A program made the position numbers and the translations under genes. Positions 7,611 to 53,951 of a stretch of 64,000 nucleotides of DNA are shown here, in pieces; the stretch's first letter is position 1, and the number at the start of each line of letters is the position of its first letter. The notes below the pieces were generated by a model. That model saw only the letters and a list, made by a program, of their open reading frames with translations. It was not told where the DNA came from and made no database searches. Location of the stretch: contig CAJVZR010000016.1 of NCBI GenBank assembly GCA_913019965.1, positions 1 through 64,000 of the forward strand. Reading direction: 5' to 3'. Origin of the DNA: an uncultured Oleispira sp. (lineage in GTDB: Bacteria > Pseudomonadota > Gammaproteobacteria > Pseudomonadales > Oceanobacteraceae).

Positions 7611-7965
7611 GGGGGCGCTCTGGATTCGACGTTGGTTACAAAGCTAAAGGTGCATGTCGAGAGTGTATGATAATCTCGTAAATACATATCATACAAAATT
7701 ATAGTCGCAAACGACGAAAACTACGCACTAGCAGCTTAGGCTGCTTACCTTTGAAGATGGTTGCCTATTACCATCGGATAAGGGCACGCAAAATAGGATC
7801 GACTGGCGGCTTCGCTCGTAGCTTAAGGTCTAAAACTAATCGAGCTCGCCCCGAACTCCCTGCCTCTTGGGCCGTGACGGGTTAACTTAATAAAGTGGCT
7901 AAGCATGTGAAGATCAGTTAGTGGCGGATTGACGGACGTGGGTTCAATTCCCACCGCCTCCACCA
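7611..7965 (+). ncRNA. ssrA: Transfer-messenger RNA (tmRNA)
   Basis: This is a one-piece tmRNA of 355 bases. The 5' end GGGGGCG pairs over seven bases with the 3' acceptor strand CGCCTCC (7955-7961), with a G-U at the third pair as in alanine tRNA; A and an encoded CCA follow (7962-7965). The conserved CTCTGGATTCGACG follows the 5' end and the T-arm GGGTTCAATTCCC is near the 3' end. The tag reading frame is at 7707-7739: GCA AAC GAC GAA AAC TAC GCA CTA GCA GCT then TAG, giving the peptide ANDENYALAA, the same as in E. coli. The 3' end also serves as the integration site of the following island. Confidence 0.97.
7938..7965 (+). other. Probable attL: ssrA 3' end used as integration site
   Basis: The integrase gene begins about 60 bases after the CCA end of ssrA, in the same direction. 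The tmRNA 3' end (T-arm plus acceptor) is a well-known target for tyrosine integrases, which restore the RNA end on insertion. I did not find a second copy of the T-arm/acceptor sequence between 8000 and 17000 by eye, so attR is not located and the exact core is unknown. Confidence 0.55.
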
Positions 7966-49020: not shown

Positions 49021-49078
49021 GACTAAAGTAATGCCCTACAGTGTGCTAAAAATAATAACAATCAGAGCCGAGGCTTAT

Positions 49079-50635
49079 ATGACTGATTTTGATGCCATTG
49101 TGATTGGCGCAGGGAACGCGGGCTTAACCGCCGCAACGGCCTTGCAAAGAGGAGGTGCACGCACCTTACTACTAGAGCGACATAATATTCCCGGTGGTTG
49201 TGCAACCTCGTTTATTCGCGGAGAATTTGAATTCGAAGTCGCCTTACACCAGCTCAGTGGCATGGGGACCGAAAAGAGCCCCTTTATCATGCGTAAGATA
49301 TTCACCGACCTTGGCATCATGGATCAGCTGAATGTAGTCGAAGAGCGTGAACTGTATCGTGTCGTCTTACCCTCTATTGAAAATAAAGACCATGAAATTG
49401 ATGTCACTCTACCCGCCAATATAAAGGCGCTAAAGAAGACTCTTATCGCTCACTACCCCGACGAAAGTGAGAATATCGAAGCCTATCTGACCTTATGCGA
49501 AAAGCTCTCTCTCGAGTGCTTCATGATGCTGCCCCGCGCACAGAAAACCGGTGACCAAACCGTACTTGAATCGACCTGCCCGCTTTATATTCAATACGGC
49601 CTTACGCCCTCGAAAGATGTTCTCAATGAGTTCTTCACTAATAAAGATTTAAAGGCCGTTATCGCCGCCTATTGGTGTTACATCGGCCTGCCACCAAAAG
49701 ACATTCCTTTTTGTGACCTCGCAGTGATGATTTACGCCTACGCCGCCTTTAAACCGTGTCATGTACAAGGCGGGTCACAGGCTATTTCCAGCGCGTTATT
49801 AGAATCCTTCTTAGCCGCTGGGGGTAAAGTATTATTCAATACCGGCGCGGAAAAAATTCTCAGTGAAGATAACCAAGTTAAAGCGGTACAAACTGAACAT
49901 GGGGATATTTTTAGTTGTGAACACGTTATTTCTAATACCAGCCCACTGCATACATTCAACGAATTATTAGATATCCCAACCCCACAGCAAGCTTCTGACG
50001 ATATGAAGTCTCGTCGCTTAGGCACCTCGGCATTCGTATTGTATTTAGGTTTAGATTGCACCCCAGAAGAACTCGGAGTGACCGCCGCTTCAAACTTCAT
50101 CATCGATGATCGAGATGAAGAAGTCGCTTTTGAAACCATGCAAGGCATTGTCGACCCGACACATACTATGCTGACCTGCTATAACCATGATGATCCAACG
50201 TTTGCCCCGCCAGGAAAATCTTCAATTTCATTACTTTGCCTGCAATATAGCCAAGCGTGGCAAGACCTTCCGGTAGAAGAATACGCTCAAGCGAAATATG
50301 ACTTTGCCGACAAACTGATTGATCATGCAGAACGGGTTTTCCCTAACATTCGTAAAAATATCGAAGAAGTCGAAGTCGCGACGCCATTAACCATGATGCG
50401 CTATTTAAATACCCCAGGGGGTGCCATCTACGGTTTCCAACAAAATACCCAAGACGCTGCGATGTTCCGCGAACGCATTAATGCCATTCAAGGTCTACAC
50501 ATGGCCGGTAGTTGGAATGGTATGGGGGGCTTTCAGCCAACTTACATGATAGGCGAAAGCACAGCCAGAGCCGTTTTGAAGAAATTAAAAAATACCCAGT
50601 CAGAAATAAAACAGCAGGAGTTGTCCCATGCCTAA
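49079..50635 (+). CDS. FAD-dependent oxidoreductase, phytoene desaturase/retinol saturase-like
   Basis: This 518-residue flavoprotein starts at ATG 49079 (preceded by GAGG) with the dinucleotide motif DAIVIGAGNAGLTAATAL and ERHNIPGGCATSF, typical of the CrtI/retinol saturase group. The C-terminal FAD motif is NAIQGLHMAGSWNGMGGFQP. Family members desaturate, saturate or isomerise polyene or long-chain lipids. The stop region overlaps the start of the ferredoxin-reductase-like gene by eight bases, so electrons may be exchanged between the products. The actual substrate is unknown; no other carotenoid genes lie in the window. Confidence 0.85.
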   Translation: MTDFDAIVIGAGNAGLTAATALQRGGARTLLLERHNIPGGCATSFIRGEFEFEVALHQLSGMGTEKSPFIMRKIFTDLGIMDQLNVVEERELYRVVLPSIENKDHEIDVTLPANIKALKKTLIAHYPDESENIEAYLTLCEKLSLECFMMLPRAQKTGDQTVLESTCPLYIQYGLTPSKDVLNEFFTNKDLKAVIAAYWCYIGLPPKDIPFCDLAVMIYAYAAFKPCHVQGGSQAISSALLESFLAAGGKVLFNTGAEKILSEDNQVKAVQTEHGDIFSCEHVISNTSPLHTFNELLDIPTPQQASDDMKSRRLGTSAFVLYLGLDCTPEELGVTAASNFIIDDRDEEVAFETMQGIVDPTHTMLTCYNHDDPTFAPPGKSSISLLCLQYSQAWQDLPVEEYAQAKYDFADKLIDHAERVFPNIRKNIEEVEVATPLTMMRYLNTPGGAIYGFQQNTQDAAMFRERINAIQGLHMAGSWNGMGGFQPTYMIGESTARAVLKKLKNTQSEIKQQELSHA

Positions 50636-51842
50636 TTCCTCAAGCGCAAAAAATAATATCTTACATGCCGTCAAAGGCTATCAAGAAGCCCTAGACCATC
50701 AGCAAGAGTTGATTAAAACCGGGACTGATTTTAACGAGCAAAAGGGGCAGGTCGCCAATACCATCGCTACCCTGCATCCAAAGCGCTTACAACTGGTTGT
50801 GAGTGAAGTAATAGAAGATACAGCCAGTACTAAAACCCTACGTTTTAAGGCTGAGGGCATTGTCTTACCGCCGTTTCAAGCGGGACAGTACATTAATTTA
50901 TTCGTTAATATCGAGGGTACCGAAACCGCACGCCCTTATGCAATTTCCTCTGCGCCGCAGCAAAGGGGTTATTATGATCTAACCATTAAACGCGTCGCCG
51001 ATGGCTATGTGTCTCATTATTTATTAGATGATGTTAAGGCCGGAGATCGCTTTCAAAGCACAGGCCCAATGGGAACTTTTTATCATAATCCATTATTCCA
51101 TGGTGATGATCTTGTTTTCTTAGCCGGGGGCTCCGGCATCGCTCCAGCACGCAGCATGATCATTAATATGATTGAAAATACACTCACTCATAGAAAAGCT
51201 GCGCAAAAACTGCATCTAGTTTATGCCTCCAGTTATGAAGCCGATGTGATCTATGAGAATGAATTAAAACAATTAGAAAAAGAGCACGATTTTTTAACCA
51301 TTACTTGGTTAATTTCAAGACCGACAGAAAAATATACCGGACGCACAGGACATGTGAATGCCGAGTTATTAACCGAGCTATTAGGCAGTGATTTAGAGAA
51401 GCTGCAAAGAAAGATGTTTTATATTTGCGGTCCAACCAGCTTCCATGATTTTTGTGCGCAACAGCTTGAACAATTGAAAGTTAAAGCGAGACGAGTTCGT
51501 ATTGAATGCAATGGTCCACCAAAGCACCCAGAAACCCTTACTGGCTGGCCGCAAGATTTAATCGCCAGCGACAAGGTTTCTGTCACCATTAACAAGGCAG
51601 ATGGAACTCAAGGGCAATTTGAAGCACGCGTCGATGAGCCGCTACTGAACAGCATGGAACGTAATGGCTATAGCGCCGAAAATGCGTGTCGTTCTGGGGA
51701 ATGTAGTTTGTGCCGTGTGAAAGTCGTTAAAGGTTCGGTATTTAATCCACAAGAAGCTAGATTACGCTCCACCGATGAAGCCTATGGCTGGTGCCACTCT
51801 TGTGTCGCCTTCCCGACCAGTGATATTGAAATCATGGTTTAA
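50628..51842 (+). CDS. Ferredoxin-NAD(P) reductase with C-terminal [2Fe-2S] domain
   Basis: This 404-residue electron-transfer protein has an FAD domain (RPYAISSAP, GYYDLTIKRV), an NAD(P) domain with LVFLAGGSGIAPARSM and FYICGPTSFHD, and a plant-type [2Fe-2S] domain at about residues 315-404 with CRSGECSLC and later GWCHSC. The first 55 residues are a helical extension that I do not recognise. The gene overlaps the CrtI-like gene by eight bases and should be its redox partner. It is convergent with the TetR gene. Confidence 0.9.
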   Translation: MPNSSSAKNNILHAVKGYQEALDHQQELIKTGTDFNEQKGQVANTIATLHPKRLQLVVSEVIEDTASTKTLRFKAEGIVLPPFQAGQYINLFVNIEGTETARPYAISSAPQQRGYYDLTIKRVADGYVSHYLLDDVKAGDRFQSTGPMGTFYHNPLFHGDDLVFLAGGSGIAPARSMIINMIENTLTHRKAAQKLHLVYASSYEADVIYENELKQLEKEHDFLTITWLISRPTEKYTGRTGHVNAELLTELLGSDLEKLQRKMFYICGPTSFHDFCAQQLEQLKVKARRVRIECNGPPKHPETLTGWPQDLIASDKVSVTINKADGTQGQFEARVDEPLLNSMERNGYSAENACRSGECSLCRVKVVKGSVFNPQEARLRSTDEAYGWCHSCVAFPTSDIEIMV

Positions 51843-51884: not shown

Positions 51885-52517
51885 CTAGTCTTGAAGAAAT
51901 TGATCGGAGATTGGCGTGGCCGCAGCTAAGAAGCGTTTAAAACTGGTACCTTCAGGTACTTGAATATGACCTTCAATAATCAGTGCGGCCATTCCGTGAA
52001 CCATAGACCAAGCGCCTAAGGCCTGAGCTTTGACTTTAGCCTTATCATCACCACGTAACGCAAACGCTTCACGCAATAAAATAAATGGCTTCTTACTGCT
52101 CTCTAAAAAGGAGCTGCTAACCGCATCATCAGACACTTCTTTTTTATTCTTACGCCCTGTCGTTTCCACCTGACCTAACATCAAACGATAAAGCTGAGGA
52201 TTAGACGTCGCAAACTCTAAATAGCTTGCGCCATACGCTAATACCAATTCCCCTGGGGTTAAACTTTTCTTGGCTTTTGATTCAATCGCAACCGCTTCCA
52301 TCGTATCAGCCATCAATACGAAACCTGCTTCGGCAATACTTTTAATCAGTTCTTTTTTATTTTTGAAGTGGGCATAAGGGGCCATATGAGAGACCCCAAC
52401 TTCTGCAGCAATCGCTCTAAGGGATAAAGCATCTGCACCATCACGCAGTAATATGGCATTTGCGGCGGCGATCAAAGAGGCCTTTAAATCACCGTGATGG
52501 TATTGTTTTGTGCTCAT
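51885..52517 (-). CDS. TetR/AcrR family regulator
   Basis: This 210-residue TetR repressor has the helix-turn-helix LSLRAIAAEVGVSHMAPYAH followed by FKNKKELI, and a C-terminal ligand domain of the WHG/TetR_C_33 type. It is convergent with the reductase gene. The operator with three TGTAAA half-sites in front of the CrtI-like gene is a likely target, although no such half-site is seen in front of the TetR gene itself. It may respond to a fatty or aromatic ligand; this is inference. Confidence 0.9.
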   Translation of the reverse strand: MSTKQYHHGDLKASLIAAANAILLRDGADALSLRAIAAEVGVSHMAPYAHFKNKKELIKSIAEAGFVLMADTMEAVAIESKAKKSLTPGELVLAYGASYLEFATSNPQLYRLMLGQVETTGRKNKKEVSDDAVSSSFLESSKKPFILLREAFALRGDDKAKVKAQALGAWSMVHGMAALIIEGHIQVPEGTSFKRFLAAATPISDQFLQD

Positions 52518-52576: not shown

Positions 52577-53314
52577 CTAGCTGTTATCTAGCGCAATCCC
52601 TACGTTGAGAGCTTCGAACCAATCCATGAACTGACCCACTTCTTTGCCGCGAAAGATCCGACCGTGTTGGGGTAGCATCATTTCAATGTCTAATTTACGC
52701 ACCCGATTCAACCAATGGGCTTTCGCTTCGTTACTCGGCATCCAGCGTTGATGGAAGAATCTCATCTTGTCACAATGAGTGTCAAAGTTTTCAATAAATA
52801 ACGAACTGTCTTGGGGCTCTAATGCTGCACCGATATCACCGGAAAATAAAATCTTTGCAACCGGATCATAAACATGAAAATTGGCTGATGAATGCAAATA
52901 ATGGGCAGGGATAAACTGCAATACCGTCTCCCCAATTTTTAACTCACCTCCGCCATCTTCAATGCCACAAAATTCAATATTTTCACAACCAAAGTGGCGA
53001 ATAAAGCCTTCCCACAATCCTGGAGTATAAAGTTTGGCATGAGGAATGACCTGATCCCACATACCCAGTGAAGAAATGATATCGGGGTCTTGATGGGAAG
53101 CAAATAAGTGCGTCACTTGTTCAATCGGTATGAACTTTAATATCGTCGAAAGCATAGAAGAGAATATTTCAATTCCGCCTGGGTCCAATACCAAAGACTC
53201 TTTACCACTCACTACCATATATTGGTTAGTATCAATAATTTTATCGGGCTTATCTGGATCGCGTGCAAACACATACCACTGGTGTTTATCATCAAATAAT
53301 AATTTAGCTTCCAT
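52577..53314 (-). CDS. Metallo-beta-lactamase-fold protein, flavodiiron/ODP-like
   Basis: This 245-residue protein is a stand-alone metallo-beta-lactamase-fold domain of the flavodiiron (ODP) type, without flavodoxin. Diiron ligands fit the pattern H74-x-D76-x-D78, H138, D160 and H217, with Asp76 in the place usually taken by Glu and no histidine directly after D78. ODP domains bind oxygen at a non-heme diiron site and some act as oxygen sensors. It follows a small coiled-coil gene by 28 bases. An oxygen- or redox-sensing role is inferred from the fold. Confidence 0.82.
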   Translation of the reverse strand: MEAKLLFDDKHQWYVFARDPDKPDKIIDTNQYMVVSGKESLVLDPGGIEIFSSMLSTILKFIPIEQVTHLFASHQDPDIISSLGMWDQVIPHAKLYTPGLWEGFIRHFGCENIEFCGIEDGGGELKIGETVLQFIPAHYLHSSANFHVYDPVAKILFSGDIGAALEPQDSSLFIENFDTHCDKMRFFHQRWMPSNEAKAHWLNRVRKLDIEMMLPQHGRIFRGKEVGQFMDWFEALNVGIALDNS

Positions 53315-53342
53315 TTTTCATTCCTTGCTTAAGAGCTTCCTC

Positions 53343-53951
53343 TTAAATATTCGACATTAATAAACGATCAATATGAGATTTTGCATCAAGTACATGCTGT
53401 TTGATTTTTTCTGAAAAAATATCAATATTGTTCGCCATGTCTTCCAATATCCCCTGATACTCATCAGTTTGTGTTGCTTCTAAACGAAAGGATACTGCGA
53501 CGACACGACTGGCCTGCATGTACTGTTGAATTTCTTCTAATTGGCTTTCTAAGCTGCGAATTTCAATATTAAAGCGATTATTAATATCCAGCTGTTTTCG
53601 CTTAGTAACATGAATAATTTGGTCAACCTTCTCATTCTCATTTTTTTCTTGGCTATCAAATAAATGTCCAACGAGGGTATTTTGGCGCCAGCGTTCTACT
53701 GCCATATGAGAGATATCTAATGATATTCGATTGATTTCTTCCGCCAGCTTGATCGTCTTTAATGCTAAATCAGCAAAGTATTCTGAGATAACCTTTAATC
53801 CCGCGACCTTGCTACCCGCTCGATGCACCACCGCTTGAGAATTCTTCGCCGCTAACGATAGTTGCCTTGCAATGCCACTGGCACGATAAAGCTCACCCGC
53901 AACTTGCGAAGAGGTAATAGCGGACTTAACTGGGCTGTATTCTTTGACCAT
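53343..53951 (-). CDS. Hypothetical helical protein, possible chemoreceptor-like partner of the ODP protein
   Basis: This 202-residue protein has no membrane segment and is predicted almost entirely helical, with heptad-like stretches at about residues 10-105 and 115-200. Weak similarity to methyl-accepting or methyl-accepting-like signalling helices is suggested by composition (Ala, Ser, Gln, Glu-rich repeats) but no hallmark hairpin motif was found. The gene precedes the flavodiiron-like gene by 28 bases on the same strand, so the two products probably work together. An ODP-chemoreceptor combination is known as an oxygen sensor in Treponema. Confidence 0.6.
   Translation of the reverse strand: MVKEYSPVKSAITSSQVAGELYRASGIARQLSLAAKNSQAVVHRAGSKVAGLKVISEYFADLALKTIKLAEEINRISLDISHMAVERWRQNTLVGHLFDSQEKNENEKVDQIIHVTKRKQLDINNRFNIEIRSLESQLEEIQQYMQASRVVAVSFRLEATQTDEYQGILEDMANNIDIFSEKIKQHVLDAKSHIDRLLMSNI

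Follow-up and report, generated by a model that had tools for sequence, protein, structure and literature searches.

According to the available portion of PMC7666581, the Treponema ODP TDE2498 has a genetically coupled partner in TDE2496, a separate MCP homologue that has neither transmembrane nor sensing modules and modulates CheA. The accessible text of PMC7319448 lists ODP genes that share operons with MCP genes, in either of two gene orders, ODPs accompanied by other signalling genes, and ODPs fused to signalling domains; an excerpt of PMC6978683 reports that cognate soluble receptors interact with ODP. A sequence-only reading of the locus studied here had treated fused ODP-chemoreceptor proteins as the known form and a split pair as a variation. 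That novelty argument is inverted, because the characterised Treponema form is already a two-protein system; on the sections available, PMC7666581 and PMC7319448 rule out a fused ODP-MCP protein as the norm.

Chemoreceptors confined to a single chain form a second point of comparison. The literature makes mention of soluble MCP domains that are naturally single-chain, and the available part of PMC4692393 calls the roles of natural single-chain receptor forms unknown and engineers single-chain receptors to probe the role of each subunit in the trimer of dimers.

Here we describe a gene pair in a 64,000-nucleotide stretch of DNA from an uncultured Oleispira sp. (hereafter the window), which sits on a 66.5-kb contig of a 4.3-Mb draft genome. 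Like TDE2498/TDE2496, as the excerpts present them, the pair sets an ODP beside a separate receptor homologue without a transmembrane or sensing module. As far as sequence tells, the true difference is the partner, a short protein, not recognisable as an MCP, whose single chain holds two degenerate MCP-tip hairpins: TDE2496 is described as a CheA-modulating MCP homologue, whereas the partner here has ~200 aa and falls below the MCP cut-off. It shares with natural and engineered single-chain receptors two hairpins in one polypeptide, meant as one dimer. Those forms, in the texts available, are MCP signalling domains or full receptors, whereas the hairpins here are degenerate, with conserved residues divided between them, and a constant ODP gene neighbour sets the partner further apart from them. 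Two oxygen-response systems offer partial parallels. CetA/CetB aerotaxis receptors (PMC12442639) also make one oxygen-response receptor from two separate proteins, but with an FAD-using sensor and another receptor partner. DcrH (PMC13401364) also ties diiron oxygen sensing to chemotaxis, a link that we propose for the window's pair, but does so by fusion of a hemerythrin domain to an MCP that includes transmembrane and HAMP parts. Our searches of open-licence papers turned up no description of a ~200-aa two-hairpin ODP partner.

Results

The pair consists of two genes on the minus strand: that of a 202-aa helical partner (53343-53951), recognised by linkage to ODP, profile comparison and predicted models, and, 28 bp later, that of a 245-aa ODP-family protein (52577-53314), the proposed sensory subunit. 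A lipase chaperone gene upstream and a TetR gene downstream flank the pair, both also on the minus strand. No MCP, CheW or CheA gene is annotated beside it. Promoter and terminator scans gave fewer sites than in shuffles, and the sole Rfam match was tmRNA, whose gene (7611-7965, plus strand) encodes the tag ANDENYALAA. The window also holds, at 49031-51842 on the plus strand, a CrtI-like FAD oxidoreductase gene and a PaaE/MmoC-like reductase gene, the two with an overlap of a few bases. The TetR gene (51885-52517, minus strand) comes after the ODP gene on the same strand, an order also present in the four other pair-bearing genomes of the genus (L003-L006) and, as far as we looked, limited to the genus.

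The second gene encodes a clear member of the ODP family. Its product matches the Pfam ODP model (PF19583) at 255.5 bits against a cut-off of 27.2 (E 4e-76), over profile positions 1-194 of 194, and the closest solved chains by phmmer are 6qrq (E 3.9e-64) and 6qnm (E 1e-50), which we take to be the Treponema denticola and Thermotoga maritima ODP proteins; flavodiiron proteins score far below. A flavodiiron identity was rejected: the 245 residues hold no flavodoxin domain, Pfam gives ODP and Lactamase_B alone, and the NCBIfam flavorubredoxin model reaches 30.9 bits against a cut-off of 635. The protein's own genome yields a single match to it.

The six-ligand set H-x-D-x-D, H, D, H is complete. 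On the minus strand, H74, D76 and D78 are encoded within HQDPD (residues 74-78; 53081..53095), H138 within PAHYLHS alongside a conserved H141 (52892..52903), D160 within SGDIG (52835..52837) and H217 within PQHG (52664..52666). Across an alignment of 97 distinct ODPs these positions are constant bar one replacement of D160 by E, in 1 of 76 partner-linked rows. Both the ligand set and the ODP domain without flavodoxin had been proposed in the sequence-only reading, and both stand, down to the exact residue numbers. The protein could instead be a metallo-hydrolase that uses zinc, or a relic that no longer senses, given that it is a member of the metallo-beta-lactamase superfamily (Lactamase_B, 71.9 bits) and that sequence cannot reveal the identity of a metal. 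The score of the ODP model, the oxygen-binding diiron proteins that are its closest solved chains and the near-constancy of its Asp-rich ligands all speak against this, and we regard it as very improbable.

The 202-aa protein is no chance neighbour of the ODP, because in all 47 named loci surveyed the ODP gene comes directly after it, with order and strand unchanged (at L104 with a shortened ODP frame). The adjacent helical gene of the sequence-only reading is thereby borne out as half of a recurring pair. These loci lie in Oleispira, Bermanella, Thalassolituus, Oceanobacter, Gynuella, Catenovulum, Pleionea, Exilibacterium, Enterovibrio, Grimontia and others; the closest named relatives of the partner are from Oleispira MAGs. 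Within the family to which the window's genome belongs, the partner proper occurs in 33 of 44 genomes (a raw tally of 37 includes full MCPs), with an ODP adjoining in 33/33, 30 of them judged from sequence and three from coordinates. Wider samples agree. Matches to the partner at E 1e-6, full MCPs counted in, were found in 24 of 293 genomes of the order sample, where the clear partners, 22 genes in 21 genomes with our own included, all have an ODP (22/22). The class sample gave matches in 38 of 369 genomes, again with full MCPs counted in, and 21 clear partner genes, own included, 21/21 with ODP. In the phylum sample 22 of 398 genomes matched, adding four new clear partners, all of the same class and all with ODP (4/4). 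Two genomes carry two pairs: G308 (L121 and L133, both of the main partner type) and G551 (L152 and L168, one main and one of the divergent type described below).

Pfam and NCBIfam give no accepted match for the partner. The best hint is a below-threshold match to MCPsignal (PF00015; 13.9 bits, cut-off 34.6), and a relative in genome G573 reaches 20.8 bits. We split the partner profile into halves and compared each with 20 MCPs of the same genome, drawn from 21 places that pass the cut-off on their own; the partner set omitted 13 of the 47 named-locus partners as near-duplicates or for ambiguous letters. Both halves fall over the same tip, the N half aligning with MCP columns 80-146 and the C half with 97-145. 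Their scores of 28.9 and 30.8 exceed every shuffle (maxima 21.1 and 20.9; 150 shuffles each) and the reversed profiles (16.7 and 17.7), and the N half scores 19.6 against the C half (shuffle maximum 17.8, 150 shuffles). Pairwise profile probabilities are modest (35% and 51% for the halves against MCPs, 7% for N against C), and the weight therefore lies in the tip register and its repetition.

The tip match recurs in a divergent partner subfamily, whose profile was built from five sequences and matches the main partner family over its length (E 3e-12). Here the two scores, 37.0 and 24.1, again lie above all shuffles (maxima 19.4 and 19.9; 100 shuffles), with probabilities of 79% and 13%. Moreover, all 13 saved out-of-family matches from the order and class samples are canonical MCPs with the tip motif, and L238-L243 from the phylum sample are MCPs by the same motif. 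Partner-MCP alignments printed through the tip set the N half on the tip motif, and that of L159 shows the C half as well. Chance coiled-coil similarity is disfavoured as the source of the signal: shuffled and reversed profiles score lower, and these out-of-family matches are all MCPs. On these profile comparisons, each half of the partner is homologous to an MCP hairpin tip, in keeping with the helical, signalling-like partner that the sequence-only reading had placed beside an ODP-type protein.

The two hairpins retain different parts of the tip. Positions are given in Tsr numbering, mapped through the tip motif. Both tips are encoded on the minus strand; the N tip (residues 27-63; 53763..53873) keeps the positions of N381, R388, G390 and G395, and the C tip (residues 144-180; 53412..53522) those of E385 and A386. 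Among 35 partner sequences, the N hairpin has A372, L377, A379, N381, R388, G390, G395 and A407 in 35/35 and E385 in 0/35. The C hairpin has E385 and A386 in 35/35, A400 in 32/35 and G390 in 30/35, with R388 in 3/35 and N381 in 1/35. The full conserved tip signature is absent from both hairpins, each taken alone, in these 35 sequences, and neither half is recognisable, copy by copy, as an MCP signalling domain. Much of the signature is instead present once per chain, divided between the two hairpins.

Predicted structures point to a compact helical bundle. The AlphaFold2 model of the window's partner is all-helical (mean pLDDT 89.0, pTM 0.79), and its closest structural match, tied with similar bundles, is 5vjs (Z 16.5, rmsd 2.2, 172/202 residues), of a class of designed single-chain four-helix bundles. 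A model of the Grimontia hollisae partner (pLDDT 84.2) matches 5vju (Z 17.9, rmsd 1.8, 175/205 residues), so that both models match a single-chain four-helix bundle over 85% of their length. This speaks for topology, not kinship, because four-helix bundles are common. Foldseek gave no PDB match at E <=0.001 for the partner model. The best 50 structural matches listed include no MCP signalling-domain structure, which is no evidence against kinship; the PilJ rows among the matches listed are of the periplasmic part (7zjr, by its title).

The fold of the N tip bears on whether one chain suffices for a bundle. DSSP writes residues 7-104 and 6-102 of the two models as one helix, unbroken through the N tip, where confidence is lower (blocks of 83 and 74). 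If that helix is straight, the partner may be an ordinary homodimer or a domain-swapped oligomer and no single-chain pseudo-dimer, and engineered single-chain receptors do swap subunits between molecules, according to the available part of PMC4692393. Both models nevertheless fit single-chain four-helix bundles closely. A straight helix of ~98 residues should not permit such fits, and we therefore read the single DSSP helix as a tight tip turn. The oligomeric alternative, which contests one step of the proposed mechanism and not all of it, seems to us rather unlikely. In the reading that we prefer, the four helices of the predicted fold most likely alternate, down, up, down, up, which puts both tips at one end.

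A tree of the ODPs was built from ~119 rows, of which 4 were dropped by a trimming rule and 18 removed as identical, leaving 97 distinct rows. The 76 partner-linked rows and 4 divergent-partner rows lie within one 81-row branch (support 98/98) whose remaining row, the ODP of genome G646, is labelled 'none'; the other 16 unlinked ODPs are the other branch. Partner labels need 3 changes on the tree against a shuffled mean of 19.8. The tree so read agrees with a constant partnership; it is no proof of a single origin, because it is midpoint-rooted and long branches meet at its deepest split. Directly upstream of the G646 ODP lies a 218-aa protein (L221:2417-3070, plus strand) with no Pfam match, perhaps a third, more diverged partner type. 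Some ODPs without the partner have neighbours of other kinds: those at L172, L174 and L176, in three genomes of one family, sit beside PfkB-like and RlmI-like genes, and the G033 ODP (L059) adjoins thiamine-type genes (all named by eye). The latter, which is outside the tree, was rejected as an ODP that had lost its partner, since its sequence resembles the stand-alone ODP type.

In four of ten regions the pair stands in a chemosensory operon, a rate that means nothing because the regions were picked by coordinate or partner-type hints of such context. In G573 the order is CheY-like, CheA, PAS-MCP, CheW, STAS, CheR, CheD, CheB, some others, partner and ODP. In the other three operons the partner is of the divergent type. 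Their orders are a CheW-domain gene, two MCPs, CheW, CheB, partner, ODP and CheR in G551; MCP, CheW, CheW, partner, ODP, CheR and CheB in G641; and CheA, MCP, CheW, partner, ODP, CheR, CheD, CheB and CheW in G484. Outside these four, G496 has a CheW match (C2:124974-125393) beside a divergent partner and ODP, judged from coordinates alone. Searches with six profiles (E 1e-8) found no chemosensory genes within 6 kb in 46 of 47 named loci and one MCP in the remaining locus, a negative of limited sensitivity because each HMM drew on just two to six sequences, or 20 in the case of MCP. CheW domains occur in 35/35 pair genomes tested against 275/369 class-sample genomes, a comparison that ignores kinship and represents the window's own family by its own genome only. 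MCPs are present in 34/34 pair genomes and in the window's own genome.

ODPs also occur in fusions to GGDEF domains, in two genomes of the same class (L215:2302-4257, plus strand; L216:1413-3176, minus strand), and other outputs therefore exist for ODPs. As we propose for the window's pair, the ODP is the sensory module of a signalling protein, but the connection is covalent and the output a cyclase, whereas the pair consists of separate proteins. These fusions fit the 'fused' ODP group of the literature.

The partner could be an MCP descendant that acts off the arrays, as an ODP subunit, chaperone or regulator, with an output such as c-di-GMP, transcription or redox defence. The scarcity of chemosensory genes within 6 kb, the eroded tip residues, the two GGDEF fusions and the TetR gene that follows the ODP in the genus are all compatible with this. 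Yet four operons set the pair among cheA, cheW, cheR, cheB and MCP genes, CheW is present in every pair genome tested, several tip residues are invariant (35/35), and the TetR neighbour is seen in the genus only. On balance we judge an off-array role unlikely.

Discussion

Combining these observations, we think it probable that a natural mini-receptor, pseudo-dimeric and made of a single chain, lets the ODP act on chemotaxis arrays. The two genes would make one two-protein sensor unit. In this unit the ODP would be the sensory subunit, whose six-ligand site would bind iron and, by family analogy, O2, and the 202-aa protein would be its cognate soluble receptor, cut down to two MCP-tip hairpins. 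One partner molecule is expected to form a four-helix bundle whose two tips share the same end, which would make it a pseudo-dimeric MCP signalling tip, and to join or dock on chemoreceptor/CheW/CheA arrays that are presumably encoded elsewhere in the genome. The ODP would bind the partner, and its O2 or iron state would alter CheA output. O2/iron sensing for chemotaxis is likely, in line with the sequence-only reading.

The division of the tip signature suggests a more specific model, which we offer tentatively as a possibility short of an even chance. The partner would be an asymmetric single-chain tip of ~200 aa, with one hairpin facing the trimer axis and the other CheA/CheW, and would serve as an adaptor that plugs the ODP into arrays. 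Unlike hairpins in one chain could fix which of them faces what in the trimer of dimers. As such an adaptor, the partner would let O2/iron sensing enter existing arrays without an ODP-owned receptor in the usual sense.

The partner is more interesting than the earlier reading saw, although the function proposed for the pair is an inference. If our interpretation is correct, the partner would be a chemoreceptor-like protein of very small size and the counterpart in nature to the engineered single-chain receptors described in the available part of PMC4692393. It would also account for how an ODP could be linked to arrays in many Gammaproteobacteria where no cognate MCP is recognisable, and both non-pathogenic marine bacteria and laboratory E. 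coli would lend themselves to its study. It suggests a miniature route by which oxygen sensing may feed into bacterial steering.
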